NCBI RefSeq assembly: GCF_002160135.1
Contig: NZ_NFJZ01000009.1
Location: 1 to 64,000, forward strand
Length of the DNA: 64,000 bases
Origin: Lachnoclostridium sp. An196
GTDB lineage: Bacteria > Bacillota > Clostridia > Lachnospirales > Lachnospiraceae
Reading direction: 5' to 3'
Both the position numbers and the translations under genes were made by a program. The notes beneath the pieces are model-generated. The model worked only from the letters and a program-made list of their open reading frames with translations. It made no database searches and had not been told where the DNA came from. This document shows, one piece after another, positions 1-12,974 of this stretch (its first letter is position 1; every line of letters begins with the position of its first letter).

Positions 1-2
1 CT

Positions 3-242
3 ACGGTCGGTTCGTGGTTCCTGACAACGTTTCAGACAGCATACACGAACGTCACGAACGTTTTCCGGGGGATCGGACAGTGGTTTTCCGCCCGGTGGAC
101 GGATGTCAAAAACGCGTTGTCATCGGTCGGAACATGGTTTCAGTCTACGTTTCAGACAGCATATAACAACGTCACAAACATATTCAAAAATATAGGTTCG
201 TGGTTTAAGACGAATGTTATCGACAAAATCAAAAGCGTTTTC
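3..242 (+). repeat. Two tandem 120-bp (40-codon) tape measure repeats
   Basis: Copies run 3-122 and 123-242. They share the order G-x-W-F, TFQTAY, NVTN, F, I-G-x-W-F at identical spacing. More copies may lie upstream, outside the window. Confidence 0.85.
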
Positions 243-719
243 GACGGGTTCAGTCTGGCAGACACCGGGAAAAAGATAATGGATTCGTTCGTGAACGCGA
301 TAAAGTCGATACATATTCCGAAGCTGTCGATCGATTGGGGAACGGCGGAAAAGACAATCGCGGGATTTACTATAAAAGTGCCTGTTCCGCATATTTCATG
401 GAACGCGTTGGGCGGTATTATGAGGAATCCGACGATTTTCGGAATGTTAGGCGGGAAGCTGCAGGGCGGCGGAGAAGCCGGGGACGAAGCAATTCTGCCG
501 CTTGATATATTTTATCGCCGGACAGAAGGCTATATTGATGACGCAATCGCGCGGGCAACGGCAGCGGCGAAAGGAAGCAGCGACAGCAGCAGGAGCAGGG
601 GCGACTTTATTCAGAATATCAACATTGAAAGCCCGGATCCCCTATCGCCGTATGAGGTAGCACGTCAGACGAGGAATCAGACGCGGAATCTGGTTCTTCA
701 GTTGCAGGGGGGACGCTGA
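3..719 (+). CDS. Phage tail tape measure protein, C-terminal part (5' end outside window)
   Basis: The frame is open from the left edge, so only the last 238 residues are seen. The opening 80 residues are two copies of a 40-residue unit with regularly spaced Trp and Phe (GSWF, QTAY, NVTN), the periodic aromatic pattern typical of tape measure proteins. The tail end is Gly-rich and then polar and charged. Tape measure proteins set the tail length of siphoviruses and lie just before the distal tail gene, as here: the stop is one base before the next start. An apparent TTG start at 117 is internal, because the same repeat continues upstream of it. Function is by family pattern and context. Confidence 0.85.
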   Translation, partial: TVGSWFLTTFQTAYTNVTNVFRGIGQWFSARWTDVKNALSSVGTWFQSTFQTAYNNVTNIFKNIGSWFKTNVIDKIKSVFDGFSLADTGKKIMDSFVNAIKSIHIPKLSIDWGTAEKTIAGFTIKVPVPHISWNALGGIMRNPTIFGMLGGKLQGGGEAGDEAILPLDIFYRRTEGYIDDAIARATAAAKGSSDSSRSRGDFIQNINIESPDPLSPYEVARQTRNQTRNLVLQLQGGR

Positions 720-720
720 T

Positions 721-1596
721 ATGTCAAAGAAAATTGTATGCAAAAACGAAGATGACGTTCAGATCGAATTCAGCTATGAGGATGACGCCGAATTTTTTCT
801 GATATCATGCGACGGGATCTATTCCGTGTCAAATAATGTTGTGACAAGCGAAAACACGATGACGGACGGATCCACATATCAGGGCAGCACAACGAAGCAG
901 CGGAATATCGTCATCACGGCGGAATTTGATTCCGATTATCAGTCCCGCCGGGATTTTCTGTATAAGTCATTCAAACCAAAATCGCCGGGGACGTTCTTTT
1001 ATTTTGAGAACGAAGAACAGCGACAGATCGATTATTACGTCGAGGGAATCGAAATCGACGAAGCGGGCGTGTGCCGAAATGCTGTCATTTCCCTGATCTG
1101 TCCGGATCCGTTCTTTAAAGATCCCGCTGATACTACTGTCACAATGGCAGGGTGGGAACCGTGTTTTGAATTCGTCCATGAATTCACGGACGAACTGGAA
1201 GAATTCGGCGTCCGAATCGCGGAGTTAGTAAAGAACATTGAAAACGATTCGGCGGCGGATCATATCGGAATAGAAGTCCTTATGGAAGCGTTGGGAGCGG
1301 TCAGAAATCCGGTTTTATACCATATGCAGCAGGATATCCACATTCAGATCGGAACGGACGACTATCCGTTCGACATGGAGCCGGGCGACGTGGTAAAAAT
1401 CACAACCGGGACAAACGAAAAGAACGCCTATTTGATAAAGGGCGGGGAAACACAGAAAATAAACGAATATCTGGACGAAGAAAGCGAATTCATACAGTTG
1501 GTACACGGGGCGAATACGTTCATTTACGACGCCGCGTCCGGCGTTGATTATCTGAACGTGACGATCAAATATCGGTTCCGATATTTAGGAGTATAG
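721..1596 (+). CDS. Distal tail protein (Dit / siphovirus tail component family)
   Basis: A 291-residue protein of the siphovirus distal tail family. These form the hexameric hub joining tail tube and baseplate. The N-terminal half shows the usual layout: a short strand-rich opening, then TTKQRNIVITAEF and the DFLYKSF segment around residues 75-85, then the ICPDPFFKD motif near residue 125, common where the N-terminal Dit domain ends. The C-terminal part (about 150-291) is a galectin-like region by analogy. It sits one base after the tape measure stop and just before a Gp37-like gene, the standard tail order. Recognition is by family pattern. Confidence 0.85.
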   Translation: MSKKIVCKNEDDVQIEFSYEDDAEFFLISCDGIYSVSNNVVTSENTMTDGSTYQGSTTKQRNIVITAEFDSDYQSRRDFLYKSFKPKSPGTFFYFENEEQRQIDYYVEGIEIDEAGVCRNAVISLICPDPFFKDPADTTVTMAGWEPCFEFVHEFTDELEEFGVRIAELVKNIENDSAADHIGIEVLMEALGAVRNPVLYHMQQDIHIQIGTDDYPFDMEPGDVVKITTGTNEKNAYLIKGGETQKINEYLDEESEFIQLVHGANTFIYDAASGVDYLNVTIKYRFRYLGV

Positions 1597-1608
1597 GAGC
1601 GTGAGAAA

Positions 1609-2649
1609 ATGGAAGTCAGGATATACGGACAGAATTTATTCAGAAAAGGGCAGATAGAAAATCAAATATCCCTGATCTGGACGCGAAAATTTTATGAACC
1701 GGGGACGTTTGAACTTCACGCGCCGATTACTGACGAAAATCTGTCTTTGTTGCAGCCGGGAAACATCATCGGAAAAAAAGGTTCAGACGAAGCGGGAATT
1801 ATTGAGGATATCGAAAAAGAAGAAAGCGATATCAAAAACGAGATCACGGCAAAGGGGCGGTTTTTATCGTCCTACATGGATCGCCGTCTGATAAAAAAGA
1901 CCGTGAATTTTTCGGGATATATTGAAGTCGCTATGCGTCAGTTATATTCCGGCGCGGTTCCGCTTCCGCTTGTGGAATTGGGAACACTAAACGGTTTCAC
2001 GGAACGGGCGGAATTTCAAGTCACGATGAAAAATCTTTTGACGTATGAAGAAAAGTTATCGCGGGCGGGCGCAATCGGATTCCGGTTCCGCCCGGATTTC
2101 AAGAATCGGAAAATCGTTTTTGAAACGTACAAAGGAAAAGACCGGACGTTCAGTCAGCACGAAAACAACCGCGTCGTATTCAGTGAAAATTATAATAACC
2201 TGAACAACGCGATCTATCGGTACAACAATCAGAACTTGAAAACGTTCGCGATAGTCGGCGGGCAGGGAGAAGGAGACGCCCGGACATATTACGAATTAGG
2301 CGGCGGGCAGGGGTACGATTTACGCGAAGTATTTGTTGACGCGAAAGACATAAATCCGGACGGGATGACGTCGGCAGCATACAAGGCGGCGTTATTGCAG
2401 AGGGCGCAGGAAACGTTGAACGCGTCGATCGTGTCGGAAACGTTGGAGTGCGAAACGGAAGCAGCGATCAATTTCACATACAAACAAGATTATGATTTAG
2501 GCGACGTTGTAACAGTCAGGAAGAACAAATGGAATCTGTATATGAATCAGAGGATCACGGAATTGTCCGAAGTGTACGAATACGGCGGAATGACCGTCGT
2601 TCCGACGTTCGGCGATCCGCTTCCTGAAACAATAAAATGGGATGAATAG
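1609..2649 (+). CDS. Tail-associated protein, siphovirus ReqiPepy6 Gp37-like family
   Basis: A 346-residue protein with the features of Gp37-like tail proteins: an N-terminal strand-rich domain with ISLIWTRKFYEPGTFELHAP near residue 22, a middle segment (GFRFRPDFKNRKIVFETYKG, about 160-180) and a C-terminal stretch with YDLGDVVTV and the GMTVVPTFGDP end. Members occupy the position of the tail-associated lysin/Tal hub protein after Dit. No peptidase motif was seen, so enzymatic activity is not claimed. The start follows a GGAG-type ribosome site in the 12-base gap after the distal tail gene. Confidence 0.8.
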   Translation: MEVRIYGQNLFRKGQIENQISLIWTRKFYEPGTFELHAPITDENLSLLQPGNIIGKKGSDEAGIIEDIEKEESDIKNEITAKGRFLSSYMDRRLIKKTVNFSGYIEVAMRQLYSGAVPLPLVELGTLNGFTERAEFQVTMKNLLTYEEKLSRAGAIGFRFRPDFKNRKIVFETYKGKDRTFSQHENNRVVFSENYNNLNNAIYRYNNQNLKTFAIVGGQGEGDARTYYELGGGQGYDLREVFVDAKDINPDGMTSAAYKAALLQRAQETLNASIVSETLECETEAAINFTYKQDYDLGDVVTVRKNKWNLYMNQRITELSEVYEYGGMTVVPTFGDPLPETIKWDE

Positions 2650-2664
2650 GAAAGGGGCGGAAAA

Positions 2665-3693
2665 ATGGCAAAAGAAAGAAGCTACGATTATTTTTGGAAT
2701 TCTGAAAACGATCGTTATTATGACGCTGATTCTATGGGGGACTGGCTGCGCCCGTTCTTCTGCAACGGCGTTTTTAACGGTCAAATGCAAGTGACGGCAA
2801 ACAATAATATGTCCGTTACCGTCGCGGCGGGGTATGGCTACATAAACGGAAAACACAGACATTTCCTGCAGCCGACAACGCTTGATCTGGAAACGGCTTC
2901 CGGCACACTGGATAGAATCGACGCTGTTATTTTACGCCGGAACGACACGGAGCGCCGGATCTATTTAACGATTGTAAAAGGCGGAAACGCAAACACGCCG
3001 ACAGCGCCCGCCCCGACGCGCGAAGGGGCTATTTACGATCTGAAACTGGCGGATATCTATATCGCTGCCGGAACGGTTAGGATTACACAGGCAGAAATAA
3101 GCGATACAAGAATGAACGATGCCGTCTGCGGTTGGGTGGCGGCAACCGTAAACGAAATTGACTTTACGCAGATTCAGGCGCAATTTGACAGCTATTTCAC
3201 GGCGTACAAGAAAAATATTTCCGATCAGTATCAAGAATATTTCGCCGCAATTCAGGAATTCAAAGAACAGGCGCAAAGCGACTATAATTTGTTGCTTCAG
3301 GCGTTCCAGACATACGCCGATCAGCAGGAAGCGTTATATCAGGACTGGATCGCTGAACAGGAATCCACGTTTGAGGAATGGAGCGAAGGGCAGCAGTCCA
3401 CGTTTTCACAGTGGCGACAGAATCAGGAAAGCGCGTTCAATAACTGGTATTTGAATAATACGGGACAATGGACTTCCGACTTTCTGAACTGGTTTAACGG
3501 AATCAAGGGTATATTCTCCACGGATCCGGCGGGCGAAATGATTCTGATGATTCAATCGCTGTTCGACATTATCTATTCCGGCACAATCCCGGCTGATCTT
3601 ATCACGTCGGACGGCGACGAACTGATAACAACAGACGGCGATCAGTTGATCGCGTTCTGGACGATAAAAACGTCCGAAACGTGTCACTGTTAG
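2665..3693 (+). CDS. Baseplate/tail fibre protein (BppU-like N-terminal region, coiled-coil middle)
   Basis: A 342-residue structural protein. Residues 1-150 look like the N-terminal domain shared by many Firmicute phage baseplate proteins (ending in LADIYIAAGTVRITQAEI and a DTRMN segment). Residues 165-275 are helical and aromatic-rich, with a degenerate 10-11 residue repeat around QDWIAEQESTFEEW and FSQWRQNQESAFNNW, likely a trimeric stalk. The end has a doubled ITSDGDELI / ITTDGDQLI motif. Lying between the Gp37-like gene and the DGR target, it may be the adaptor for the diversified receptor-binding protein. That role is inferred. Confidence 0.7.
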   Translation: MAKERSYDYFWNSENDRYYDADSMGDWLRPFFCNGVFNGQMQVTANNNMSVTVAAGYGYINGKHRHFLQPTTLDLETASGTLDRIDAVILRRNDTERRIYLTIVKGGNANTPTAPAPTREGAIYDLKLADIYIAAGTVRITQAEISDTRMNDAVCGWVAATVNEIDFTQIQAQFDSYFTAYKKNISDQYQEYFAAIQEFKEQAQSDYNLLLQAFQTYADQQEALYQDWIAEQESTFEEWSEGQQSTFSQWRQNQESAFNNWYLNNTGQWTSDFLNWFNGIKGIFSTDPAGEMILMIQSLFDIIYSGTIPADLITSDGDELITTDGDQLIAFWTIKTSETCHC

Positions 3694-3728
3694 CTATATA
3701 AATAATCAAAAGAAAGGAGTTTTACAAA

Positions 3729-4859
3729 ATGGCGCAGAAGATGTTTAAAGACTTGACGCCTATCGTCAGTATGGGGAATACGGATCTTTTTCCGGTGGAG
3801 CAGTCCGACGGAACAAAAAAGGCGACGTTCGCGCAGATATGCGAAGAAATCAAGCTGCCGGACGTTGCCGAGCAGGTCGGGGATTTCCCGGAACTGGCAG
3901 AGGGCGACACGCTGAAAGTTATCGCCGGAAAAATTATCAAATGGCAGCAGGACGCGATCGAGAAAATCGAAACGTATATCCTGAAGTCGTCTATCATTCA
4001 GGAATTCCCGCAGGAGGTCGATCTGGAAGCAGAGGACGATCCGGGAGCGGAAGCCCTGAAAAAGCAGGTCATTTCCGGCTTACTGGCGTACACGATGAAC
4101 GAGAAGATCCTGCAGGTCATTTCGGATCATGGAACACTGGCGGCAGATTACGCAATCTTAAAGCGGGAACAAATAGCGTCGTATGGATATTACGGCGTCG
4201 AATGGGACATCGACGATCTGATGACGCTTGTTAAAGCGGGAAAATGGGACAAATTCGCGGTCGGAGATTACTTCATTGAGACGAACACATCCGGCGAAAA
4301 AATCCAGTTTGAGATCGCCGGAAAAAATTCATACTTGAATTGCGGCGATACCGCCTTGACGGTTCCCCATATTGTCGCCTGCCCGCGCGATTGCCTGAAT
4401 ACTTATTACAAGTACAACAGCACGAACACAAACGCCGGAGGATATGCGGCGTCGCTCATGCCCGCGAATCTGGAAACGGAAGCAAATAAATTCACGTCGA
4501 AATTGCAGGGGTATATGACGACGATCCGGCGTCTGGAAAATAACAAGGGGACGTGGGCGTGGGCGTCCCGCCGGATCTTCCTTCCGGGCAATCCCGAACT
4601 TGTCGGGTTCCACGGTTGGGCGGATCAGTACGACGGCGGAGCGTTCAATCAGCTTCCGTTATTTGCCGGAGGGAACGCGCACATTCTGAAAGGCGCAGGA
4701 TATAACAAGGGTAAAGCCGCCCGGATGTGGTACTGGACTGCCGATCCGTCCGCCGCGAACACGACGTACTTTTGCCTTTTCTCCGACAACGGCCACAGCA
4801 GCGCCGGCTCCGGAGCGTCCAACGACGGCGGCGTCGCCCCGTTTATCGTTCTGTCATAG
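3729..4859 (+). CDS. DGR variable (target) protein, probable tail-tip receptor-binding protein
   Basis: A 376-residue protein. The N-terminal 60 residues resemble phage tail fibre attachment regions. The C-terminal 150 residues look like a C-type-lectin-fold variable protein: Trp- and Gly-rich (GFHGWADQYDGG, FAGGNAHILKGAGYNKGK), then ARMWYWTADPSAANTT, a variable patch and GGVAPFIVLS at the end. Codons for Y347, L350, S352, D353, H356, S358, A359 and G360 differ from the template repeat only where the template has adenine, and S361 has no template counterpart. The start has a good AGAAAGGAG site. By analogy with Mtd of Bordetella phage BPP-1, the variable patch is expected to bind a host surface receptor. 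The receptor is unknown. Confidence 0.9.
   Translation: MAQKMFKDLTPIVSMGNTDLFPVEQSDGTKKATFAQICEEIKLPDVAEQVGDFPELAEGDTLKVIAGKIIKWQQDAIEKIETYILKSSIIQEFPQEVDLEAEDDPGAEALKKQVISGLLAYTMNEKILQVISDHGTLAADYAILKREQIASYGYYGVEWDIDDLMTLVKAGKWDKFAVGDYFIETNTSGEKIQFEIAGKNSYLNCGDTALTVPHIVACPRDCLNTYYKYNSTNTNAGGYAASLMPANLETEANKFTSKLQGYMTTIRRLENNKGTWAWASRRIFLPGNPELVGFHGWADQYDGGAFNQLPLFAGGNAHILKGAGYNKGKAARMWYWTADPSAANTTYFCLFSDNGHSSAGSGASNDGGVAPFIVLS
4715..4841 (+). repeat. DGR variable repeat (VR), 127 bp
   Basis: Aligns with the template repeat at 5571-5694. The first 52 bases are identical, then 12 substitutions occur, all at template adenines (to T, C or G), then a 30-base identical 3' part ending in the GC-rich GGCGGCGTCGCCCCG (the likely initiation-of-mutagenic-homing element). 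The VR has one more codon (TCC for S361) than the TR. Similarity stops after position 4841, where VR continues TTTATCG and TR continues ATATCG. Confidence 0.95.
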
Positions 4860-4877
4860 ACAGATAATCCGGCAATC

Positions 4878-4900
4878 GCGCCGCCCGGCAGCGGCGGCGC
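4878..4900 (+). promoter_or_regulatory. Perfect 8-bp inverted repeat just downstream of VR
   Basis: GCGCCGCC, 7-base loop, GGCGGCGC, starting 36 bases after the VR end and 18 bases after the stop codon. In BPP-1 and related DGRs a DNA hairpin downstream of the homing element helps target recognition. This is the obvious candidate here, although its loop is 7 rather than 4 bases and it lies further away. No T-run follows, so a terminator is less likely. Confidence 0.6.
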
Positions 4901-4931
4901 ATATGACCGAAACAGAAAAGAGGAATAAATA

Positions 4932-5546
4932 ATGTCTGTCCCGTCATGGAAACAAACGGCGTCAAAACTGGACGCATTTACCGAAGCCGTGAAATTACGG
5001 CACATTGTTACACAAATGATTATGCGGAATTTCGGGTTAAAGCGAACAAAATATGACGCGATTGTCGGGCGGCAAGTCCGCGAGAAATACCCGGAATTAA
5101 AAAGCCTGATTGCAAGAATCGACGAATTTCAAAATGAGGTAGAAAAGGCGCGGATTCTGACGCAATATCCAGAATGGATTATTGAAAAGGTCAGGGACAA
5201 TTTGTTCCGATATTCGTCGGATCTGGTTTCAAATATCGCGGCAGCGAATGAGATTTTATGCCGGACACAAAACGAATTCGTTAAACGGATTTTGTTGGAG
5301 AATGACGCGATCGGCGACATCGCGCGGATCCGGCAGGAGGTTCTTTTCATCGAAGAATTTTTCGATATCGACTTGTCGCGCTACATGGAATTTTCTGAAC
5401 AACTGGAAATGACGAAGAATTATCTGTATAGGTGGAAAAAGTCAACGATCAGGGATTACGACGAATTCCTTCATCCAGAGAAAAAGGCGTCGCGTCTGGA
5501 AAAGGAAAAGGCAAAGAAAAGCCGTAAACAGCAAAGAAAACAATAA
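4932..5546 (+). CDS. avd: Avd-like DGR accessory protein
   Basis: A 204-residue, strongly helical protein between the DGR target and the template repeat, where accessory variability determinant genes lie. The opening MSVPSWKQ matches openings I recall for Firmicute DGR accessory proteins. Avd proteins form a positively charged pentameric four-helix barrel that binds the reverse transcriptase and the TR RNA. This protein is longer than the roughly 125-residue BPP-1 Avd and ends in a very basic tail (KKASRLEKEKAKKSRKQQRKQ, split by few acidic residues), which could bind nucleic acid. It may be a divergent Avd subtype. Assignment rests on position, helical character and charge. Confidence 0.7.
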   Translation: MSVPSWKQTASKLDAFTEAVKLRHIVTQMIMRNFGLKRTKYDAIVGRQVREKYPELKSLIARIDEFQNEVEKARILTQYPEWIIEKVRDNLFRYSSDLVSNIAAANEILCRTQNEFVKRILLENDAIGDIARIRQEVLFIEEFFDIDLSRYMEFSEQLEMTKNYLYRWKKSTIRDYDEFLHPEKKASRLEKEKAKKSRKQQRKQ

Positions 5547-5570
5547 AATATTTTCGGTTATGCGTTGCAC

Positions 5571-5694
5571 AGCCGCCCGGATGTGGTACTGGACTGCCGA
5601 TCCGTCCGCCGCGAACACGACGAACTTTTGCAATTTCAACAACAACGGCAACAGCAACAACAACGGAGCGTCCAACGACGGCGGCGTCGCCCCG
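5571..5694 (+). repeat. DGR template repeat (TR), 124 bp
   Basis: Non-coding copy of the VR. The region matching the variable patch is rich in AAC triplets (AAC TTT TGC AAT TTC AAC AAC..., with two runs of three AAC). AAC is the favoured DGR template codon because changing its two adenines reaches many amino acids and never makes a stop. Identity to VR starts at AGCCGCCCGG and ends at CGCCCCG. It lies 24 bases after the Avd-like gene and 160 bases before the reverse transcriptase. A 63-codon frame runs across it but is not a gene. Confidence 0.95.
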
Positions 5695-5854
5695 ATATCG
5701 TCAGCAAGGCGGACATGATAAGGATTCGCCGGATAAAGAACGATAGGAACGCATGACCGCAGCGGGGAACCGCTGAAATTTACCGCCTGACGCCCGGAAG
5801 TGCTTTAAAGAAACACACTTCGTCGGGCTATCAGCGGGCGTTATTTATGAGGAT
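5695..5854 (+). ncRNA. TR-RT spacer with two RNA hairpins, probable 3' part of the DGR template RNA
   Basis: In BPP-1 the transcript downstream of TR is needed for cDNA priming and Avd/RT binding. Here the spacer can fold into a 6-bp hairpin, CAGCGG-GGAA-CCGCTG at 5760-5775, whose loop is a GNRA tetraloop, and an 11-bp hairpin at 5792-5828 (GCCCGGAAGTG against CACTTC-gt-CGGGC, with a 2-base bulge). The reverse transcriptase start follows at 5855 with only a weak GAGG site. Function as template RNA structure is inferred. Confidence 0.5.
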
Positions 5855-7045
5855 ATGGAGAATTTACCAACTTACAACAAATTATGCGATCCGAACGTCC
5901 TTATGGACGCCGCGAAAGAATGTCTAAACGGCGTTATGTGGAAATATTCATCACAAGCGTATTATTTAGACAGGATCGAACGGACACGGATCACGAAAAA
6001 GCGGCTAGAGAGCCGGGACAGAATGTCGGACGGATTCGTTCAGTTTACAGTTTGTGAACGCGGGAAACGCCGGGAAATACGGTCGATCCACATAAACGAA
6101 CGCGTCGTCCACAGAGCATTAAACGACGTCGTTCTGGTTCCGACGCTTCGCCCGAAATTGATTTATGACAACGCGGCGTCCCTGAAAGACCGGGGAACAC
6201 ATTTCGCGCTGAAACGGTTAAAAGTCCATTTATGGAGATATTACCGGGCGCATGGATCAAATGACGGCTATATTTTAATGGGCGATCTACATTCCTATTT
6301 TGATTCCGTGGATCACGACGTCGTATTCCGGGAATACAAAAAGATTTTCGGATATGATCCGGATATCGTGAATCTGATAATGGATTTCGTGGACGCGTTC
6401 GGCGAAAAGTCGCTAGGATTGGGATCGCAGGTTTCACAAATGACAGCCGTGTTTTATCCGAATCAGATCGATCACTTTATCAAAGAGCAGCTAAAAATAA
6501 AAGGCTACGGACGTTATATGGATGACTTTTATCTGATCCATGAAAGCCGGGAATACCTGCAGGAATGTTTGGAACAGATCCGGCGAATGTATGCTGATAT
6601 CGGAATCGAACTGAACGAAAAGAAAACGCGAATCGTCAAGTTATCGAACGAATTTAAGTTTCTGAAAGCGAAAACGCACCTGACAGAAACAGGACGCGTG
6701 GTTATGCGTCCGGATCACGGAACAATCACGCGGGAACGACGCAAATTGAAAACCCTGCGCCGGAAACTGGACGCCGGGGAAATCGCGTTTGCAGACGTTC
6801 AGCAAGCCTATAATTCATGGCAGGGACACATAAGACATTTTGATTCATACCGCACACGGCGGAATATGGATAAACTATTTCACGAACTGTTTTCGGAAGA
6901 AATCAGAAAAGAAAGGAGCGGCAACAATGGCAGAAAACACAAAAACTATCGCGGAGAGTTCAAACAATACGATTTTCCCGAACGTATCGATCCGGCTGAA
7001 AGACGGCACAGAGTTAGACGCGATCCTGAACGGAACAACGTATGA
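5855..7045 (+). CDS. DGR reverse transcriptase
   Basis: A 396-residue reverse transcriptase. Visible motifs: catalytic Asp at D144 in GDLHSYFDSVDHD (domain 3), LGSQVSQ at 189-195 (domain 4, the DGR-type SQ motif that replaces QG of other bacterial RTs and is linked to adenine infidelity), and YMDD at 221-224 (domain 5). The thumb region follows to about residue 340. The last 40 residues are basic and overlap the next gene in another frame. It copies the TR RNA into mutagenised cDNA for transfer to the VR. It sits immediately downstream of target, Avd and TR, completing the cassette. Confidence 0.95.
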   Translation: MENLPTYNKLCDPNVLMDAAKECLNGVMWKYSSQAYYLDRIERTRITKKRLESRDRMSDGFVQFTVCERGKRREIRSIHINERVVHRALNDVVLVPTLRPKLIYDNAASLKDRGTHFALKRLKVHLWRYYRAHGSNDGYILMGDLHSYFDSVDHDVVFREYKKIFGYDPDIVNLIMDFVDAFGEKSLGLGSQVSQMTAVFYPNQIDHFIKEQLKIKGYGRYMDDFYLIHESREYLQECLEQIRRMYADIGIELNEKKTRIVKLSNEFKFLKAKTHLTETGRVVMRPDHGTITRERRKLKTLRRKLDAGEIAFADVQQAYNSWQGHIRHFDSYRTRRNMDKLFHELFSEEIRKERSGNNGRKHKNYRGEFKQYDFPERIDPAERRHRVRRDPERNNV

Positions 7046-7289
7046 AAGCGGACAGCCGATCCCGGACGGGACATTCACGGACGACAATCTGTCGGAAGTG
7101 GAAATTAACGGGACAATATACCGGGATATGAAATTGATCTGTTCGTACCCGTGGGACGAAGGGACGCGTTTCGCATTACGAGAAATGACGCAGCAGGAGA
7201 TCGAAAACCGGGATTTAAAGGCGCAGCTTCAGGCGGCGCAGTTATCCGTCGCAGAACTGACAATCATCGTTTCCGGGCTTATGATGTAG
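6927..7289 (+). CDS. Phage protein of unknown function, 120 residues
   Basis: The start was chosen at the ATG preceded by AAAGGAG at a 7-base spacing; the frame itself is open further upstream. The gene begins inside the reverse transcriptase gene and overlaps it by 119 bases. The protein has a strand-rich N-terminal part (SIRLKDGTELDAILNGTTYE) and a C-terminal coiled coil (ENRDLKAQLQAAQLSVAELT). Similar small coiled-coil proteins sit between tail and lysis genes in many Firmicute phages. No function is assigned. Confidence 0.75.
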   Translation: MAENTKTIAESSNNTIFPNVSIRLKDGTELDAILNGTTYESGQPIPDGTFTDDNLSEVEINGTIYRDMKLICSYPWDEGTRFALREMTQQEIENRDLKAQLQAAQLSVAELTIIVSGLMM

Positions 7290-7305
7290 AGAGGGGGCGC
7301 ACAAT

Positions 7306-7455
7306 ATGACATTCGATAAAAACAGCGGGCTTGTGATTGTATGGGTTAATATGGTTCAGAACGGGACATATACGCGCGATCAGATTCCGAAAATGTTCAA
7401 TCTGCGGGAGGTCGTGGCGGAGGTTCTGGACGAGCAGGCGGAGGACGCCGCGTAA
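7306..7455 (+). CDS. Small phage protein, 49 residues (CD1375/XkdX-like)
   Basis: ATG preceded by a GAGAGGGGG site, stop TAA at 7453. The product carries the pattern of the tiny proteins found just before phage lysis cassettes: YTRDQIPKMFNLREVVAEVL, that is a short helix, I/V-P, then N-L-R-E. The role of this family is unknown. It follows the previous gene by 16 bases and is followed by two hairpins. Confidence 0.65.
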   Translation: MTFDKNSGLVIVWVNMVQNGTYTRDQIPKMFNLREVVAEVLDEQAEDAA

Positions 7456-7460
7456 TTATG

Positions 7461-7547
7461 CCGGAAGCGGATCCGGCTTCCGGATCTTTTCCTGAATATC
7501 CCCGGCGGGGTGGCAGAAATTAGTCACTTCGTCGGGGTTTTGTTTTG
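7461..7547 (+). terminator. Two hairpins before the lysis genes, the second terminator-like
   Basis: CCGGAAGC / GCTTCCGG (7461-7483, loop 7) followed by ATCTTTT, then CCCCGGCG / CGTCGGGG (7500-7537, one G-T pair, loop 22) followed by TTTTGTTTTG. They mark the end of the tail/DGR transcript or an attenuation point before lysis. Confidence 0.55.
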
Positions 7548-7597
7548 TATCATGGGCGCATAAAGGAAAAACACGCACACGAAAGGAGTTAGAAAAC

Positions 7598-7930
7598 ATG
7601 GATCAGGATTATATCACACGGAGCGAACACGAGGAATTCGCCCGCCGAATGGATTCTGAAAATCAGCGAATCAAAGACGAAAACGAGCGGCAGAACAAGC
7701 GAATTTCGATTGTTGAAGAATCGGTCAGGGAATTTAATAAACTGGCGCTGCAGATCGAACGTCTTGCAACGTCAATCCGGCAAATGGGGGAAGAAATATC
7801 AAAGCAAGGGGAACATCTGGAAAATATCGAATCGAAGCCGGGGAAACGGTGGGAATCCCTGATGACCGGGATAGTCGGGGCGATTGCCGGAGCGGTCGGC
7901 GCTGCAATCGCGGCGGGCTTTTTACACTGA
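7598..7930 (+). CDS. XhlA-like lysis-associated protein
   Basis: A 110-residue protein with a long charged coiled coil (residues 8-85, QRIKDENERQNKRISIVEES) followed by one C-terminal membrane segment (MTGIVGAIAGAVGAAIAAGF). This is the architecture of the haemolysin XhlA family, membrane partners of holins in Bacillus and clostridial phages. It opens the lysis cassette ahead of the holin and endolysin, with a clear GAAAGGAG ribosome site. Confidence 0.75.
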   Translation: MDQDYITRSEHEEFARRMDSENQRIKDENERQNKRISIVEESVREFNKLALQIERLATSIRQMGEEISKQGEHLENIESKPGKRWESLMTGIVGAIAGAVGAAIAAGFLH

Positions 7931-8037
7931 AAACAGGGAACCTAAACAAGTAAGATCACAATATCCGGCGAGGATGACGCGGGGGTTATGTGATAAAGAA
8001 ACAAGGAGAAAACCAAAAAAAGAAAGGACGTGTTTTT

Positions 8038-8445
8038 ATGAATCAGGTAACTATGGAACTTTTAAAATTCGCCGTTATGTTCGTTATGGCGGTCGTTGCG
8101 TATGTCATCCGGCGCGATCTGGTTCCGTTCATCCGGTCAAAAATGACGGCGGATCAGTTGAAAACAGCGCGGGAAATGGCGACAATGTTTGTCTACATGG
8201 CAGAGCAGACATTCGGCGATAAGACGGGAGCGGAGCGAAAGCAGCTTGTAAAGGACGCATTGCGCGAAGCCCTGAAAAGCGCCGGAATCAATATGACAGA
8301 TCAGTTTGTGGACGACATGATTGAAGCGGCGGTTAAGGGAATGAAAATCGCAGAATCTGGCAGCATGATTGAATTTGAAGTTGCGGAAGCGGTTGAGGAC
8401 GAAACGGTCGCAGGGATCCCGGACGCTGCCGAAGGGGGCGTTTGA
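8038..8445 (+). CDS. Phage holin, LLH family
   Basis: A 135-residue protein with one N-terminal membrane helix (LLKFAVMFVMAVVAYVI) and a long helical, charged C-terminal part (MTADQLKTAREMATMFVYMAEQ), as in LLH-type holins. These permeabilise the membrane so the endolysin reaches the wall. The start was set at the ATG after AAAGAAAGGACG rather than at an upstream in-frame start lacking a site. Its stop is one base before the endolysin ATG. Confidence 0.8.
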   Translation: MNQVTMELLKFAVMFVMAVVAYVIRRDLVPFIRSKMTADQLKTAREMATMFVYMAEQTFGDKTGAERKQLVKDALREALKSAGINMTDQFVDDMIEAAVKGMKIAESGSMIEFEVAEAVEDETVAGIPDAAEGGV

Positions 8446-8446
8446 T

Positions 8447-9961
8447 ATGGCGACACAAGCGGAATGTGAGGTTTTTATAAATCAGATCGCGCCGTTATGC
8501 GTAAAGTACGCGGAAGCATACGGATATAAAAATGTGTCCGGGGCGATCGGTATGGCGTGTTTAGAATCCGGCTATGGACTGTCACGTCTGGCGGCGGAAT
8601 TTCATAATTATTTCGGGATGAAATGCGGGACAAAGTGGACGGGCGCGTCCGTGAATATGCGGACAATGGAAGAATACACGCCCGGAACGTTGACGCCCAT
8701 TTCAGACAATTTCCGGGTGTATGACGATATGGAATCCGGCGTCCGGGGATATTATGAATTTCTGGAACTGGCGCGTTATCGGAATGTAAGGGAGCAGGAC
8801 ACGCCGGAAGCCTATCTGTCCGAGATCAAGACGGCAGGATATGCCACGTCGTCAACCTATGTTCAGGACGTTCTGGCGGTCGTTGCGGCGCACAATTTGA
8901 CAGAATGGGACAAATATATGACCGGGCAGGAAAACGCCGCCACGGGGCAGCAGGACGCGCAGAAAGGGGGATATAATATGTATAGCAGACAGAAGGTCGT
9001 TGACTACGCAAACAGTCAGGTGGGGAAAAAGGAATCGGACGGATCCTATAAATCGATCATCGACACATACAACACGCTTCCGACGGATCAGCTTCCGCGA
9101 AAAACGCGTATGCAGTACGGTTGGGCGTGGTGTGCGTGTTTCTGGTCGGCGATTGCGGTCGCGCTGAAATATCTTGCAATCATGCCGATAGAAATTTCCT
9201 GCTATTATCTGATCGAAGCCGCTAAAAAGTTGAAAGTATGGCAGGAAAACGACGCCTATATTCCCGCGCCGGGGGACGCCGTTCTGTATGATTGGGACGA
9301 CAGCGGACAGGGGGATAATACCGGGAATCCGGATCACGTCGGCGCTGTTACATATGTCAACACGGCGTCCGGGTATATGGTCGTGACCGAAGGGAATTAT
9401 GGGAACGCGGTCAAGAAACGGACAATTTCGTTAAATGGTCGGTATATACGCGGGTTCATTACGCCCAAATATGACGACAGCGCGATCGCGGAGCCTGATA
9501 AGACAGGCGGAAAAAGTATTTCGGAAGTCGCCCATGAGGTCATAGCGGGACAGTGGGGCAACGGCGCAGCCCGGAAACGCGATCTGACGGCGGCAGGTTA
9601 TGATTACGACGCTGTTCAGTCCGAAGTCAATCGGATTTTAAACGGCAGCGCGGAGACGGCAAAGAATGAGAATTCCACAGATCAGGCGCAGCCGACGGCG
9701 CGGAAAGTAACGGCGACGTGCTACGCTCACAAATTCGACGGCGGCGTCGCCGGGACATACATCACAACGGCGAATCTGTACTGCAGGAACGACGCCGGGA
9801 CGAATAAAAAGGCGTTGTGCCTGATCCCGGAGGGAACGAAGGTTCAGTGTTACGGATATTATAACGTGTCCGGCGGCGTGAAATGGCTTTACATTCAGTT
9901 TGTAATGGACGGGACACAATACACGGGATTTTCAAGCGCGGCTTATCTGAAAAAAGCGTAA
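8447..9961 (+). CDS. Multidomain endolysin: GH73 glucosaminidase, CHAP, CW_7, SH3b
   Basis: A 504-residue peptidoglycan hydrolase. Residues 8-160 look like a GH73 glucosaminidase (catalytic Glu in ACLESGYGLS, HNYFGMK, late Tyr in YATSSTYV). Residues 180-345 are a CHAP amidase/peptidase (Cys in GWAWCACFWS, His in PDHVGAV, EGNYGN). Residues about 352-398 are a CW_7 wall-binding repeat (EVAHEVIAGQWGNG, LTAAGYDYDAV). Residues about 430-504 form an SH3b-like domain. The start is the ATG one base after the holin stop. Two catalytic activities would cut glycan and peptide parts of the host wall. An internal start between the catalytic domains is described separately. Confidence 0.9.
   Translation: MATQAECEVFINQIAPLCVKYAEAYGYKNVSGAIGMACLESGYGLSRLAAEFHNYFGMKCGTKWTGASVNMRTMEEYTPGTLTPISDNFRVYDDMESGVRGYYEFLELARYRNVREQDTPEAYLSEIKTAGYATSSTYVQDVLAVVAAHNLTEWDKYMTGQENAATGQQDAQKGGYNMYSRQKVVDYANSQVGKKESDGSYKSIIDTYNTLPTDQLPRKTRMQYGWAWCACFWSAIAVALKYLAIMPIEISCYYLIEAAKKLKVWQENDAYIPAPGDAVLYDWDDSGQGDNTGNPDHVGAVTYVNTASGYMVVTEGNYGNAVKKRTISLNGRYIRGFITPKYDDSAIAEPDKTGGKSISEVAHEVIAGQWGNGAARKRDLTAAGYDYDAVQSEVNRILNGSAETAKNENSTDQAQPTARKVTATCYAHKFDGGVAGTYITTANLYCRNDAGTNKKALCLIPEGTKVQCYGYYNVSGGVKWLYIQFVMDGTQYTGFSSAAYLKKA
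8963..8980 (+). promoter_or_regulatory. Internal ribosome site and in-frame ATG inside the endolysin gene
   Basis: AAAGGGGG (8963-8970), a 7-base spacer and ATG (8978-8980), in frame with the endolysin and exactly between the GH73 and CHAP domains. Initiation here would give a 327-residue CHAP-CW_7-SH3b protein. Confidence 0.55.
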
Positions 9962-10048
9962 AGAAAGGAGGGTTCAGCCCGCGAAAGGGCGCGGACATAA
10001 ATTAAAAGCAAACCATTCCTTCAACTGGCGGATAATATGTCACAGATA

Positions 10049-10078
10049 AAGGCGACTGCAAATAGCAGTCGCCTTTTA
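10049..10078 (+). terminator. Rho-independent terminator after the lysis genes
   Basis: AAGGCGACTGC, loop AAATA, GCAGTCGCCTTTT: an 11-bp perfect stem with a T-tract. It ends the phage late transcript. Confidence 0.9.
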
Positions 10079-10084
10079 ATACAA

Positions 10085-10140
10085 AAATACACTCAATGGG
10101 TAAAAAAGAAATTGACAAATACACTCAATGGGTATATTCT
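10085..10140 (+). promoter_or_regulatory. Promoter with two 18-bp direct repeats (operators)
   Basis: AAATACACTCAATGGGTA occurs at 10085-10102 and 10117-10134, start to start 32 bp (about three helical turns). The second copy lies over the spacer of a promoter: TTGACA at 10112-10117, 17 bp, TATTCT at 10135-10140. Each copy is a weak palindrome (ATAC...GTAT). They are likely operators for the small HTH protein encoded just downstream. Confidence 0.65.
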
Positions 10141-10183
10141 TATATAAAGAGCCAAAGAAAACGAAAGGAAAGGGGCGCAGGAT

Positions 10184-10366
10184 ATGACGATTCAGGAAGC
10201 GAGGAAAGAACGCGGATTATCGAGGAAAGCCGTTGCGGAATGGTTGGAAATACCATATCGAACTATATCAAATTGGGAAAATGGCGAACGGCAGTGTCCG
10301 GCATATATTGAAAAGTTGATCGTTGAAAAGATATTGACGTGGCAGACGGGAACGGAAAACGCATAA
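10184..10366 (+). CDS. Small HTH (XRE/Cro-like) regulator, 60 residues
   Basis: A one-domain DNA-binding protein: the helix-turn-helix is ARKERGLSRKAVAEWLEI-PYRTISNWENGER, about residues 5-37, leaving almost no other domain. The start has a GAAAGGGGCG-like site. Placed behind a promoter with two direct-repeat operators and after the lysis operon, it may be a phage regulator controlling itself. Its target is not known. Confidence 0.75.
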   Translation: MTIQEARKERGLSRKAVAEWLEIPYRTISNWENGERQCPAYIEKLIVEKILTWQTGTENA

Positions 10367-10374
10367 AAGAGGGC

Positions 10375-10395
10375 GGGCGGCTATAAAAGCCGCCC
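10375..10395. terminator. Bidirectional stem-loop between convergent genes
   Basis: GGGCGGC, TATAAAA, GCCGCCC, lying between the stop of the small HTH gene and the stop of the convergent exonuclease gene. Confidence 0.6.
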
Positions 10396-10403
10396 TTCGC
10401 CAC

Positions 10404-11399
10404 CTACTGATCCAGAACCATATCATAGAACGCGGATTCAGTTAAAATTTCAAGGTCGTTCCCCTTCAGGATCAGGGCTTCAGCCTTCTTTTGCTTATTG
10501 CTTTTTCCGTCCTTTATGGACGCGCAAAAATCATTGTTGCCGATGACAAGATAATTTGTATGTTTATTTATATTATCGGAGCAGGAGCCGCCGAGATTGA
10601 CGACAAGTTGCATAGCGTCCCGGCGAACCATTTTTTCAAGCGCACCTGTGAAACAGACGTTTTTTCCGAAAAGCGGGTTGTTTTCATCAAAAACCGTCGC
10701 TGTCGCCGTTATATCTTTCGCCGATAGTTTAGTCTTATGAGCGAACGCGGACGAAAGAAAGGCGTCAATGCTGCCGAACTGCCGAAGCGCTTCTTCTTTC
10801 AATCGCAGAAAACATTCGTTGCAAGCCCGGCAATCATCAAGGGATCTATGAGAAGGCGCGGAAGCCTTTAAATGTTTTGCGACGGTAGAAAGTTTATAGT
10901 TATCCAGATCGGGCAGCAGCTTTTTAGAAATCCGCATAACGTCGATAAAATCATTCGAGAGGGGGACGGATTTACACATCATCAAATTATCATATAAGAA
11001 ATTTATATCGAAATTAACATTGTACCCGACGAGCGTTTCACTACCCACGAAATTATAAAAGTCAGAGATCGCGGACGATATGTCCGGGGCAGATTCCAAC
11101 ATTTCATTTGTGATCCCGGTCAACGAAGTTATAAAGTCGTCGATCGGTTCGGTCGGTTTTACAAGTGTGCTGAAGGAATCGGTTTCGGAGCCGGCGCGGT
11201 ACTTGACAGCGGATATTTCAATGATTTCACAGAAACGAACATCAAGCCCGGTTGTTTCGATATCGATCACGATATAATCATCCGGGAATGATACAGAACT
11301 TTTTTTCTTTTCTGGACGCTTGATCGCTTCGGGTTGCCCGGCAACAACGCAGGGACGCCCGTTTTCATCGACGGAAATACTGATATACATATATTGCAC
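10404..11399 (-). CDS. DnaQ-type 3'-5' exonuclease with C-terminal BRCT domain
   Basis: A 331-residue protein. The exonuclease domain (about 42-205) shows the DEDDh motifs: DIETTGLD, then NVNFDINFLYD, then HRSLDDCRA. A BRCT domain follows (about 243-331: NPLFGKNVCFTGALEKM, LGGSCSDNINKHTNYLVIG). Such proteins resemble the proofreading subunit of DNA polymerase III joined to a DNA-end or nick-binding module. It is the only leftward gene in the prophage part and is divergent from an XRE repressor-like gene with a shared operator, so it is an accessory (moron-like) gene. DNA repair or defence functions are possible but unproven. Confidence 0.85.
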   Translation of the reverse strand: MQYMYISISVDENGRPCVVAGQPEAIKRPEKKKSSVSFPDDYIVIDIETTGLDVRFCEIIEISAVKYRAGSETDSFSTLVKPTEPIDDFITSLTGITNEMLESAPDISSAISDFYNFVGSETLVGYNVNFDINFLYDNLMMCKSVPLSNDFIDVMRISKKLLPDLDNYKLSTVAKHLKASAPSHRSLDDCRACNECFLRLKEEALRQFGSIDAFLSSAFAHKTKLSAKDITATATVFDENNPLFGKNVCFTGALEKMVRRDAMQLVVNLGGSCSDNINKHTNYLVIGNNDFCASIKDGKSNKQKKAEALILKGNDLEILTESAFYDMVLDQ

Positions 11400-11455
11400 C
11401 TTCCTTTTTGATATTTTTTAGGTCAGTTTTTGGGGGCTGCTGATCTTTAACACAG

Positions 11456-11505
11456 ATTATCGCATTTAATGTGCTAATGTCAAGAAAAATGCTGAATATT
11501 AGCAC
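11456..11505. promoter_or_regulatory. Divergent control region with inverted-repeat operator
   Basis: On the minus strand TTGACA (11478-11483), 16 bp, GATAAT (11456-11461) is a strong promoter for the exonuclease gene. It overlaps half of an inverted repeat GTGCTAAT (11471-11478) / ATTAGCAC (11498-11505). The repeat lies between the two divergent genes, a natural operator for the XRE protein. Confidence 0.65.
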
Positions 11506-11526
11506 AAAAAGAGGAAATGCGGTAAA

Positions 11527-11778
11527 GTGAAAATATATGATTATGGCGGGAAAAAGAATATATGCGGGAGCAGGATAAAACAGGCGCGGGCGTTGCGGAA
11601 CATTTCGCAGTCTGAACTTGCGGCTAAAATGCAAGTTGAGGGGATCACGATTGAACGGGATAGCATAAGCAGAATTGAGATAGGAACGCGTTTTGTGACT
11701 GATTATGAATTGAAAATATTTGCAAAGGTTTTAAAGGTAAATATCATGTGGTTACTATCTGATGAAGAAACGCCGTGA
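11527..11778 (+). CDS. XRE-family HTH regulator, 83 residues
   Basis: Starts with GTG after a GAGGAAA site. HTH at about residues 15-70: IKQARALRNISQSELAAKMQ, then IERDSISRIEIGTRFVTDYEL, ending in the VNIMWLLSDEE helix common to SinR/Cro-like proteins. It is divergent from the exonuclease gene with an inverted repeat between them, and is probably a repressor of that gene and of itself. It could be the phage repressor, but no second repressor or Cro partner was found beside it. Confidence 0.8.
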   Translation: MKIYDYGGKKNICGSRIKQARALRNISQSELAAKMQVEGITIERDSISRIEIGTRFVTDYELKIFAKVLKVNIMWLLSDEETP

Positions 11779-11804
11779 GGGACGCGCCCGACGGCGTTTC
11801 TTTT
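11767..11804 (+). terminator. Terminator overlapping the stop of the XRE gene
   Basis: GAAACGCCGT, 14-base loop, ACGGCGTTTC then TTTT. The left arm includes the last codons and stop of the XRE gene, so transcription of the following transposase gene would be reduced. Confidence 0.8.
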
Positions 11805-11821
11805 ATGGAGGTAAAACACAT

Positions 11822-12853
11822 ATGAAGAATTTTTCACATATGACATATAACGATCGGCTTCGCCTTGATACTCTTATCAGAGCAGGACACAAACCGAAAG
11901 AAATAGCGGAAATTTTACATAAACACGTCAGCACAATTTACAGAGAGTTAAAACGGGGAAGATATATTCACACGAATAGCGATCTGACAGAGGAAGAACG
12001 ATATAATCCAGACGAAGCGGACAGAAAGGCGCGGGAGAATCTGAAAGAAAAGGGCGCAGGACTGAAAATCGGGAACGATATTAAACTGGCGAACTATCTT
12101 GAAAAATTGGTTTCGGAAGAAAAGTATTCCCCGGACGCTGCACTGGCAAAAGCGCGGGAACATCAGGACGAGTTTTCAACAATGATATGCACAACGACTT
12201 TTTATTCATATATCGAAAAGGGAATATTTTTAAAGCTGACAAATAAGGATCTGCCCGTAAAGAAGAATCAGAAAAAGAAAAAACAAAAAGTGCGTCAATC
12301 ACGCGCAAGCCGCGGGGAGAGCATAGAGAACAGACCGGACGAAATAAATGGGCGCGAAACGTTCGGTCATTGGGAAATGGATACCGTAAAGGGAAAACAG
12401 GGAATAACAAAATCTTGTATGTTGGTTTTGACGGAGCGGAAAACAAGGGCTGAAATTATCGCAAAATTGCCGGATCAAAAATCCGAAAGCGTTATAAGGA
12501 CATTAGACAGAATAGAAAAGAAATGGGGCGATCTGTTTTATCAGGTATTTAAAAGTATAACGGTAGACAATGGATCGGAATTCGCCGACTATGAGGGAAT
12601 GGAGCGTTCCTGCAGAAAAAAGGAAAAGCGGACAACGATATATTACTGTCATCCGTATAGCAGTTACGAGCGGGGAAGCAACGAGAACCAGAACAAAATG
12701 ATCCGCCGCCATATTCCAAAAGGGACGGATATCGACGAAAAGACGGACGAAGATATCGAACGCGTGGAAAACTGGATCAATGAATACCCGCGCCGGAAAT
12801 TGGGCTACTGCAGCAGCCGGGAAATGTTTGAAATGGAGTTAAAAGCAATATAA
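11822..12853 (+). CDS. IS30-family DDE transposase at the prophage end
   Basis: A 343-residue IS30-type transposase. N-terminal HTH (residues 8-40: YNDRLRLDTLIRAGHKPKEI, HVSTIYRELKRG). The catalytic triad is visible in HWEMDTVKG, TVDNGSEF and the late SNENQNKMIRRHIPKG (Glu). Length is usual for the family. The start was set at the ATG after a GGAGG site; the longer frame upstream overlaps the XRE gene. No IS-like terminal inverted repeats were found tight against the gene, and it lies where many prophages carry their integrase. It may be an IS insertion or the phage's own recombinase. Confidence 0.85.
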   Translation: MKNFSHMTYNDRLRLDTLIRAGHKPKEIAEILHKHVSTIYRELKRGRYIHTNSDLTEEERYNPDEADRKARENLKEKGAGLKIGNDIKLANYLEKLVSEEKYSPDAALAKAREHQDEFSTMICTTTFYSYIEKGIFLKLTNKDLPVKKNQKKKKQKVRQSRASRGESIENRPDEINGRETFGHWEMDTVKGKQGITKSCMLVLTERKTRAEIIAKLPDQKSESVIRTLDRIEKKWGDLFYQVFKSITVDNGSEFADYEGMERSCRKKEKRTTIYYCHPYSSYERGSNENQNKMIRRHIPKGTDIDEKTDEDIERVENWINEYPRRKLGYCSSREMFEMELKAI

Positions 12854-12862
12854 TTATTTAAT

Positions 12863-12893
12863 ATGCACAAAAATAGAATGTGTTTTTGTGCAT
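12863..12893. terminator. 11-bp inverted repeat after the transposase gene
   Basis: ATGCACAAAAA, 9-base loop, TTTTTGTGCAT, 10 bases after the stop codon. It could end transcription, with the T-run inside the right arm, or be part of the element end. Confidence 0.5.
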
Positions 12894-12924
12894 TATGTAG
12901 AAAAGAGAAAAAACGAAAATTCTT

Positions 12925-12937
12925 TCGCATTTAATGT
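12925..12937 (+). repeat. 13-bp direct repeat of 11460-11472
   Basis: TCGCATTTAATGT occurs here and in the divergent control region at 11460-11472, flanking the XRE and transposase genes about 1.47 kb apart. A chance 13-mer match over this distance is unlikely but possible. Confidence 0.45.
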
Positions 12938-12974
12938 TGACATTTTTAGTGCTGGATTCGGACGAGCTATTTGG

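Follow-up and report, generated by a model that had tools for sequence, protein, structure and literature searches.

Diversity-generating retroelements (DGRs) are viewed mainly as host-range machines. In the DGR of Bordetella phage BPP-1, a single target gene that carries a variable repeat (VR) precedes genes for an accessory protein and a reverse transcriptase (RT), which have a template repeat (TR) between them; change is adenine specific, and a hairpin follows the VR. The DGR described here has the same order, specificity, and hairpin but, unlike that of BPP-1, more than one target. It lies in contig C30 of the genome of Lachnoclostridium sp. An196 (G000), of which we analyzed bases 1 to 64000 (the window). 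One template very probably edits two genes: target 1 in the tail module of a prophage and a DUF6273 gene in the early region of that prophage, target 2.

For BPP-1, bRT, avd, TR, and a stem-loop are named (PMC12875486). Distal second targets, also near methyltransferase genes, have already been published (PMC12629997, PMC11792537). The most similar system is that of Roseburia phage Shimadzu (LR596903), whose RT is the best match among phage records (46% identical) and which has a tail-fiber target plus a distal DUF6273 gene beside a methylase gene, both VRs fitting one TR; its targets have been reported as a tail protein and a protein of unknown function (as retold in PMC11792537). Shimadzu differs from the An196 prophage in its myovirus-type baseplate genes, an integrase annotated as a broken gene, and a shorter annotated Avd (411 nucleotides [nt]), and its second target lacks the first ∼110 residues of target 2. 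Each of the Faecalibacterium phages Lelie, CP11, and Lagaffe has two targets, with DUF6273 in those of Lelie and CP11, whereas the Lagaffe targets resemble Mtd, unlike ours (PMC11792537, PMC5883640). The Lelie RT is 32% identical to the An196 RT. Phages nd4 and nd12 also have two targets per TR, the second being a DUF6273 protein with the VR at the 3′ end of its gene; their first target, tentaclin, has N-terminal C-lec and Ig domains, whereas ours belongs to the tail module and has its VR at the C terminus (PMC10743442). In four gut prophage species a second VR lies distal to the RT cassette (PMC12629997); the DGR phages of that study are mostly from Bacteroidota, unlike ours, and are set beside it by description. 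A large survey of sequences near RTs states that it could not detect such remote VRs (PMC8144416). The An196 DGR is of a known kind; its interest lies in a comparison between two bacterial genera and in its second, probably early target.

A complete DGR on a prophage tail gene

The cassette consists of the following features, given in window coordinates.

3729 to 4859, plus strand: DGR target 1, the last open reading frame (ORF) of the tail module; 376 amino acids, with a C-terminal DUF6273-like stretch
4715 to 4841, plus strand: VR1, 127 nt, one codon longer than the TR
4878 to 4900, plus strand: hairpin 3′ of VR1, with an 8-bp stem and a 7-nt loop
4932 to 5546, plus strand: accessory protein gene; 204 amino acids, predicted helical bundle, in the position of Avd
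5571 to 5694, plus strand: TR, 124 nt
5695 to 5854, plus strand: TR-RT spacer, conserved, predicted structured RNA
5855 to 7045, plus strand: DGR-type RT gene; 396 amino acids, RVT_1, PHROG 1423

Target 1 with VR1, the accessory gene, the TR, and the RT gene make up a complete DGR that targets a gene of a prophage tail module. The original prediction, made from the letters of this stretch, had claimed such an element at 3729 to 7045, and its ORFs and repeats are all in place. It had also counted 12 substitutions between the TR and VR1, all at TR adenines; we found the same 12 of 12, with 32 adenines in the 124 nt of the TR (hypergeometric P = 1.4e-8). Unreported until now was a 3-nt, one-codon insertion in VR1, which lies in an AAC run and gives four NNC codons against the three AAC of the TR. 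The TR was rightly called AAC rich, having 10 AAC; translated in the VR frame it reads AARMWYWTADPSAANTTNFCNFNNNGNSNNNGASNDGGVAP, so that the AAC sites are asparagine codons.

The DGR-type motif LGSQVSQ (here within LGLGSQVSQ) and YMDD noticed earlier in the RT are both there, and comparison with DGR-type RTs bore out the assignment. The protein matches RVT_1 in Pfam (E value of 1.7e-17) and PHROG 1423, an RT family (E value of 4e-80), and its best phage match, the Shimadzu RT, belongs to a system with adenine-specific TR/VR pairs. The best Protein Data Bank (PDB) match was 8ub7 (E value of 1.6e-15), which we take to be the BPP-1 RT, and the second was the group II maturase 6me0 (E value of 7.3e-13). 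None of the NCBIfam models for retrons, DRT, or group II elements reached its cutoff. With PADLOC the top match was a general RT model; many models for DRT and CRISPR-associated RTs matched less well. Our RT tree was built without a non-DGR outgroup and says nothing on DGR clade membership.

In target 1, DUF6273 falls below the Pfam cutoff (E value of 0.0011, 19.4 bits versus 23.5). Target 1 matches the target-2 profile at an E value of 8.4e-23, a profile that includes the shared VR. The receptor-binding role that had been proposed for target 1 is a fair inference, since genes for Dit, Gp37-like, and structural proteins precede it.

A second gene written from the same template

Apart from the TR itself and VR1, a search of the An196 genome with the TR found a strongly matching stretch at C7:15983-16106 (C7, C22, and C4 are other contigs of this genome) and a weak match in another DGR (C30:140.9 kb). 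A 39-nt match on C22 was left as chance, and we did not accept as a VR a 25-nt stretch of the portal gene (C7:7792-7816) that resembles the TR, since it is short and has only the repeat end in common.

The strong match contains a second variable repeat, VR2 (C7:15996-16106), which corresponds to TR positions 14 to 124 without length change and is identical to the TR at 101 of 111 positions. All 10 substitutions are at TR adenines (P = 5.8e-7). VR2 lies in a 331-amino-acid ORF, target 2, on the minus strand of C7, with DUF6273 above the Pfam cutoff (E value of 3e-10, 40.7 bits versus 23.5). The stop codon found in its relatives is lost in An196 and in the near copy of the prophage described below, which adds 17 residues and places the VR2 hairpin within the ORF (L006:9928-9985). 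The earlier claim of a DGR aimed at a tail gene was thus right as to that gene and incomplete, in that the same TR also writes a remote gene, on C7. C7 and the C30 part are almost certainly one prophage, because the near copy and relatives carry both targets on one contig; in the prophage order so deduced, the targets are ∼22 kb apart.

Both VRs differ between two copies of the prophage

A search of 397 genomes of the same family for copies of the An196 prophage led to G067. This genome, a single contig, belongs to another genus, and its prophage is nearly the same but inserted at a different site. Identity is 98.8 to 99.9% in the pieces of the C7 part, 99.0 to 99.1% over window positions 1 to 10137, and 96.3 to 96.8% over 10157 to 12279, with a few short stretches unaligned. 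The C7 and C30 parts come together across the two ends of the G067 record, which is presumably circular. The flanks beyond the prophage gave no match between the two genomes at an E value of 1e-20.

Over window positions 250 to 9900, VR1 excepted, there are 27 differences in 9,523 aligned positions. This count excludes positions 1 to 249 (tape-measure repeats) and 9901 to 12949 (a divergent regulator region); on the C7 side, counting likewise starts after the first 799 bases. With nothing excluded, there are 181 differing columns, gaps included, on the C30 side and 102 on the C7 side. The TR (124 of 124 identical), the RT gene, the accessory gene, and target 1 outside VR1 have no substitutions at all. 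VR1, on the other hand, has 11 substitutions in 124 aligned positions plus the one codon, at TR-adenine sites, and VR2 differs at 12 of 111 positions, all 12 at TR adenines, against 87 of ∼18,300 outside VR2 on the C7 side. The VRs changed while the TR, RT, and accessory gene did not: both targets were rewritten after the copies split, which points to a DGR active in the recent past. Past activity had first been argued from the divergence between TR and VR; the two copies give it a better footing (11/124 in VR1 versus 27/9,523 elsewhere). The pair is a clean natural case in which to examine what each target does: nearly the same prophage in two genera and at two sites, both VRs rewritten and the TR intact.

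We consider it very unlikely that the DGR is now dead, with VR1 and VR2 as relics and a TR that no longer writes. The methylase ORF beside target 2 is split by a frame change in both copies, a sign that parts of the prophage may decay; however, the RT, accessory gene, and TR stayed unchanged between prophages with 27 other differences in 9,523 positions while both VRs were rewritten, and the RT has kept YMDD.

Most of the C30-side differences from G067 lie at window positions 9901 to 10300 and 10601 to 10900, around small helix-turn-helix (HTH) ORFs and the 5′ end of an exonuclease-BRCT gene. The pattern looks as if an immunity region had been exchanged.

Adenine specificity and the two-target plan among relatives

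Relatives were collected from IMG/VR scans, a genome-contig scan (80 loci kept of 124), and further searches; G numbers denote genomes or records, and L numbers denote the loci compared. For TR/VR counts, the TR rows themselves (>99.5% identity) and matches weaker than an E value of 1e-6 were dropped. In nine systems, which are not nine independent cases since they include the near copies An196 and G067, all 214 mismatches in 17 TR/VR pairs are at TR adenines. Shimadzu (17/18 and 15/15) and Dulem virus 34 (13/13 and 15/15), both with the two-target plan, bring the total to 274 of 275 in 21 pairs.

Each VR also follows its own template. In 15 ungapped pairs there are no non-adenine mismatches between a VR and the TR of the same system, against a mean of 10.1 and a minimum of 1 when VRs are compared with TRs of other systems (117 comparisons, An196 versus G067 omitted). 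The non-adenine changes of each TR thus recur in both its VRs, and we therefore take the VRs to have been written from that TR. Homology ends at the same 3′ base, TR 124, in 16 of 17 pairs, the remaining VR being cut by a contig end. VR length differs from that of the TR in 2 of the 17, by one codon in an AAC run each time (An196 VR1, +1; G023 VR2, −1). These markers bear on whether VR2 might be just the end of a DUF6273 paralogue of the tail target that the DGR does not write. A DUF6273-type C terminus in both target proteins would fit such a passive VR2. We find it hardly credible: VR2 and the TR agree at 101 of 111 positions with every difference at an adenine, the non-adenine markers of the TR are found in the VRs of the same genome, and the 12 differences from G067 are also all at TR adenines.

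Target 2 is present in six of eight distinct close genomes or records found via the RT (An196, G017, and G019 to G024; RT at least 59% identical); in the draft genomes G022 and G024 no target 2 was seen. G067, G030, G031, and G032 were found via target 2 itself and are uninformative on carriage frequency. Where both targets are on the same contig (G017, G019, G020, G023, and G031), the match starts are 21.6 to 23.6 kb apart. G030 (L020), which carries target 2 together with an incomplete RT and yielded no TR, contributes no TR/VR count; L023 is a fragment and was not counted, and IMGVR_UViG_2882687645_000006 (G018) was excluded as a likely copy of G020.

Ten further IMG/VR records have a target-2 relative. 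An RT was found by profile in three, and there 10 of 11, 17 of 20, and 15 of 16 mismatches between VR2 and the AAC-rich copy beside the RT are at adenines. In the other seven nothing pointed to a DGR; L184 and L185, which are among these, encode 430-amino-acid proteins. Among distant DGR genomes, a target-2-like match occurred in 12 of 49, a count in which tail-type targets were not separated out; such proteins are not general there.

Two kinds of loci were set aside. In L014 (IMGVR_UViG_3300006204_000151), a VR2-type gene lies directly upstream of the accessory gene and RT, with a switch within the VR, most likely as the result of an assembly chimera; L014 was kept out of the TR/VR and carriage counts and is still a row in alignments A1, A2, A6, A7, A10, and A11. 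In L179, and in L180, which is like it, an RVT_1 gene missed by the RT profile lies just upstream of the DUF6273 gene. It was not counted as a DGR because the RT has FADD and no SQ motif and the locus holds no second copy of the VR end.

On the side of minor observations, L014 could alternatively be a rare recombinant between VRs. In L020 and L022, target 2 is downstream of the RT and lysin genes, the opposite of the prophage order, which would fit a phage genome that is excised, circular, or permuted.

Predicted RNA structures, the accessory protein, and a possible mechanism

Taking as a hairpin a perfect stem of at least 7 bp with a loop of 3 to 8 nt, we found one 3′ of the VR in 17 of 20 testable VR flanks (one more flank was too short) and 3′ of the TR in 0 of 11. 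Only 1.9% of 4,000 shuffled flanks reached a 7-bp stem. VR2 is followed by a hairpin matching that of VR1, and the flank 3′ of the An196 TR has no stem of at least 7 bp. The stem letters vary on both sides between systems, as in G023 VR1 and Shimadzu. For the TR-RT spacer, RNAalifold of eight sequences predicted 51 pairs, of which 10 show a change on both sides at least once. The BPP-1 DGR has a comparable hairpin and spacer, and these signals fit. A search of the window with Rfam gave one tRNA only at gathering scores.

The accessory protein is longer than BPP-1 Avd and was not recognized as Avd by sequence. Its AlphaFold model is a helical bundle with a predicted local distance difference test (pLDDT) score of 81.8. 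Six matches in a PDB profile search (the best to ferritin, E value of 0.0068) were taken as chance. The protein appears Avd-like in position and shape and is at most a candidate Avd.

By analogy with known DGRs, the RT would copy the TR into cDNA with the help of the predicted helical accessory protein and of a folded RNA that spans the TR and spacer, with priming as in those systems and misincorporation opposite template adenines during synthesis. The cDNA would then replace the homologous sequence in VR1 and in VR2, with homing polarity presumably set from the VR 3′ end and the hairpin behind it. Rewriting of VR1 would diversify a receptor-binding tip, and rewriting of VR2 another binding surface, one that is probably produced during lysogeny or soon after infection. 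The extra VR1 codon probably arose by slippage in the AAC run, a process already proposed for AAC repeats, in multiples of three (PMC12875486). A longer former TR that has since lost an AAC would look the same as slippage in one genome, and the TRs of relatives do differ in that AAC run. We regard this origin as unlikely, since the TRs of An196 and G067 are identical and the codon is absent from VR2 and from the G067 VR1, so that the TR would have had to gain an AAC and then lose exactly that.

Several results weigh against the account given so far. C7 and C30 are separate contigs in the An196 assembly, and their linkage is deduced from other genomes; likewise, DGR activity is read from two snapshots, An196 and G067. 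The accessory protein has no Pfam or PHROG match at an E value of 0.01 and no NCBIfam match at 0.1. Its best-shaped Foldseek match, 2gsc (TMt of 0.76 to 0.82), is nonsignificant with an E value of 0.14 or worse, and 2rld is also among the nonsignificant fold matches. The AlphaFold model of target 2 is poor (pLDDT of 58.7) and had no structural match. Of the 51 pairs in the spacer fold, 11 are disrupted by a mismatch or gap in one or more of the eight sequences, and covariation contributes little (−1.47 of −45.99 kcal/mol).

Possible roles of target 2

By its neighbors, the position of target 2 looks early rather than structural. In An196 the gene comes after an HTH repressor-type gene and before a methylase gene; the same strand nearby also encodes a Rep-type protein and a methylase of the Dam type. 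In L177, L181, and L182, a relative of target 2 is between genes for a family A DNA polymerase and ThyX, and in L176 it follows such a polymerase gene. A relative follows a methylase gene in L183 and, by annotation, in Dulem virus 34; in Shimadzu, also by annotation, it is between a methylase and Erf. The gene upstream of the DUF6273 gene in L179 encodes the unrelated RT mentioned above. The first ∼60 residues of target 2 recur in ORFs of 67 to 233 amino acids without DUF6273, which adjoin D12 or C5 methylase genes in the three loci tested (L166 to L168). In PHROGs, target 2 matches only phrog_21980, a family without assigned function.

Target 2 may be an early, intracellular binder of something variable within the host, such as part of a defense system or a repressor made by a competing phage, acting beside the receptor binder outside the cell, a reading that we hold tentatively. 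An early-region second target refreshed from the TR of the tail gene would point to a second fast-changing interaction between phage and host. Speaking against this reading, a Hoc-like head-decoration family is matched by some relatives of target 2 in their DUF6273 part (L177, E value of 3.3e-10; L018 and L179, ∼3e-4). This match also favors the rival idea of a virion or receptor-binding component encoded away from the other structural genes, as suggested for target 2 of nd4 and nd12, and the DUF6273 domains of other targets have been modeled as C-type lectins (PMC10743442). In the same direction, L184, a weak relative of target 2, is tail-fiber-like. We judge a virion component rather doubtful nonetheless, with the gene and its relatives sitting among repressor, methylase, polymerase, ThyX, Erf, and Rep-type genes, with no PHROG match for the An196 protein other than phrog_21980, and with an N-terminal part that recurs beside methylases without DUF6273.

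PADLOC had no match to target 1 or to any of three target-2 proteins, which says nothing either way about an antidefense role. A PDB search with the target-2 profile gave two matches, the best with an E value of 0.28.

Prophage context, ends, and transposase

Other features of the prophage in the window are the following.

721 to 1596, plus strand: Dit-type distal tail protein (Pfam Sipho_tail, E value of 4.5e-10; SPP1_Dit, 3.6e-6; PHROG 33, Dit)
1609 to 2649, plus strand: Gp37-like tail protein (Pfam Sipho_Gp37, E value of 3.9e-72; PHROG 538, minor tail protein)
2665 to 3693, plus strand: virion structural protein upstream of target 1 (PHROG 1220, head protein, E value of 2e-57, and related structural families)
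8447 to 9961, plus strand: endolysin of the same prophage (Glucosaminidase, CW_7, CHAP)
11762 to 12853, plus strand: transposase near the prophage right end, presumably IS30 type (HTH_38 and rve domains)
12925 to 12949, plus strand: right terminal inverted repeat, the prophage right end; a 16-bp direct repeat starts at 12950

The order on C30 is a tape-measure-like end, Dit, the Gp37-like protein, the virion structural protein, the DGR, small ORFs, and the endolysin. The prophage genes on C7 encode an HTH repressor-type protein, methylases, a Rep-type protein, terminase, and portal, and the end stretch of C7 also aligns to the tape-measure end of C30. The DGR belongs to a temperate phage with a siphovirus-type tail module.

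In both An196 and G067 the prophage ends, near C7:19221 and window position 12949 in An196 coordinates, have imperfect terminal inverted repeats, flanked by direct repeats of 16 bp in An196 and 14 bp in G067 at unrelated sites. Among the regulator and early ORFs scanned, which were part of the ORFs only, no integrase was seen. In phage Lagaffe, an IS30-family transposase serves as the integrase (PMC5883640). L031 has a close relative of the An196 transposase (89.8%), which was not found in the available stretches of L029, L030, L033, and L034.

The methylase beside target 2 (C7, ∼15.2 to 15.9 kb) was identified through an intact relative in L018. It is whole in L018 and L021 and is cut short by frame changes, at differing places, in An196, G067, L019, and L020. 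The ORF after the RT gene begins within the 3′ end of that gene in another frame (window positions 6927 to 7045), an overlap also seen in L012 and others. Two further DGRs are present in the An196 genome: one at C30:139.3-142.4 kb (L007), with 11 of 12 TR/VR mismatches at TR adenines, and one at C4:5.1-7.4 kb (L028), with 13 of 13.

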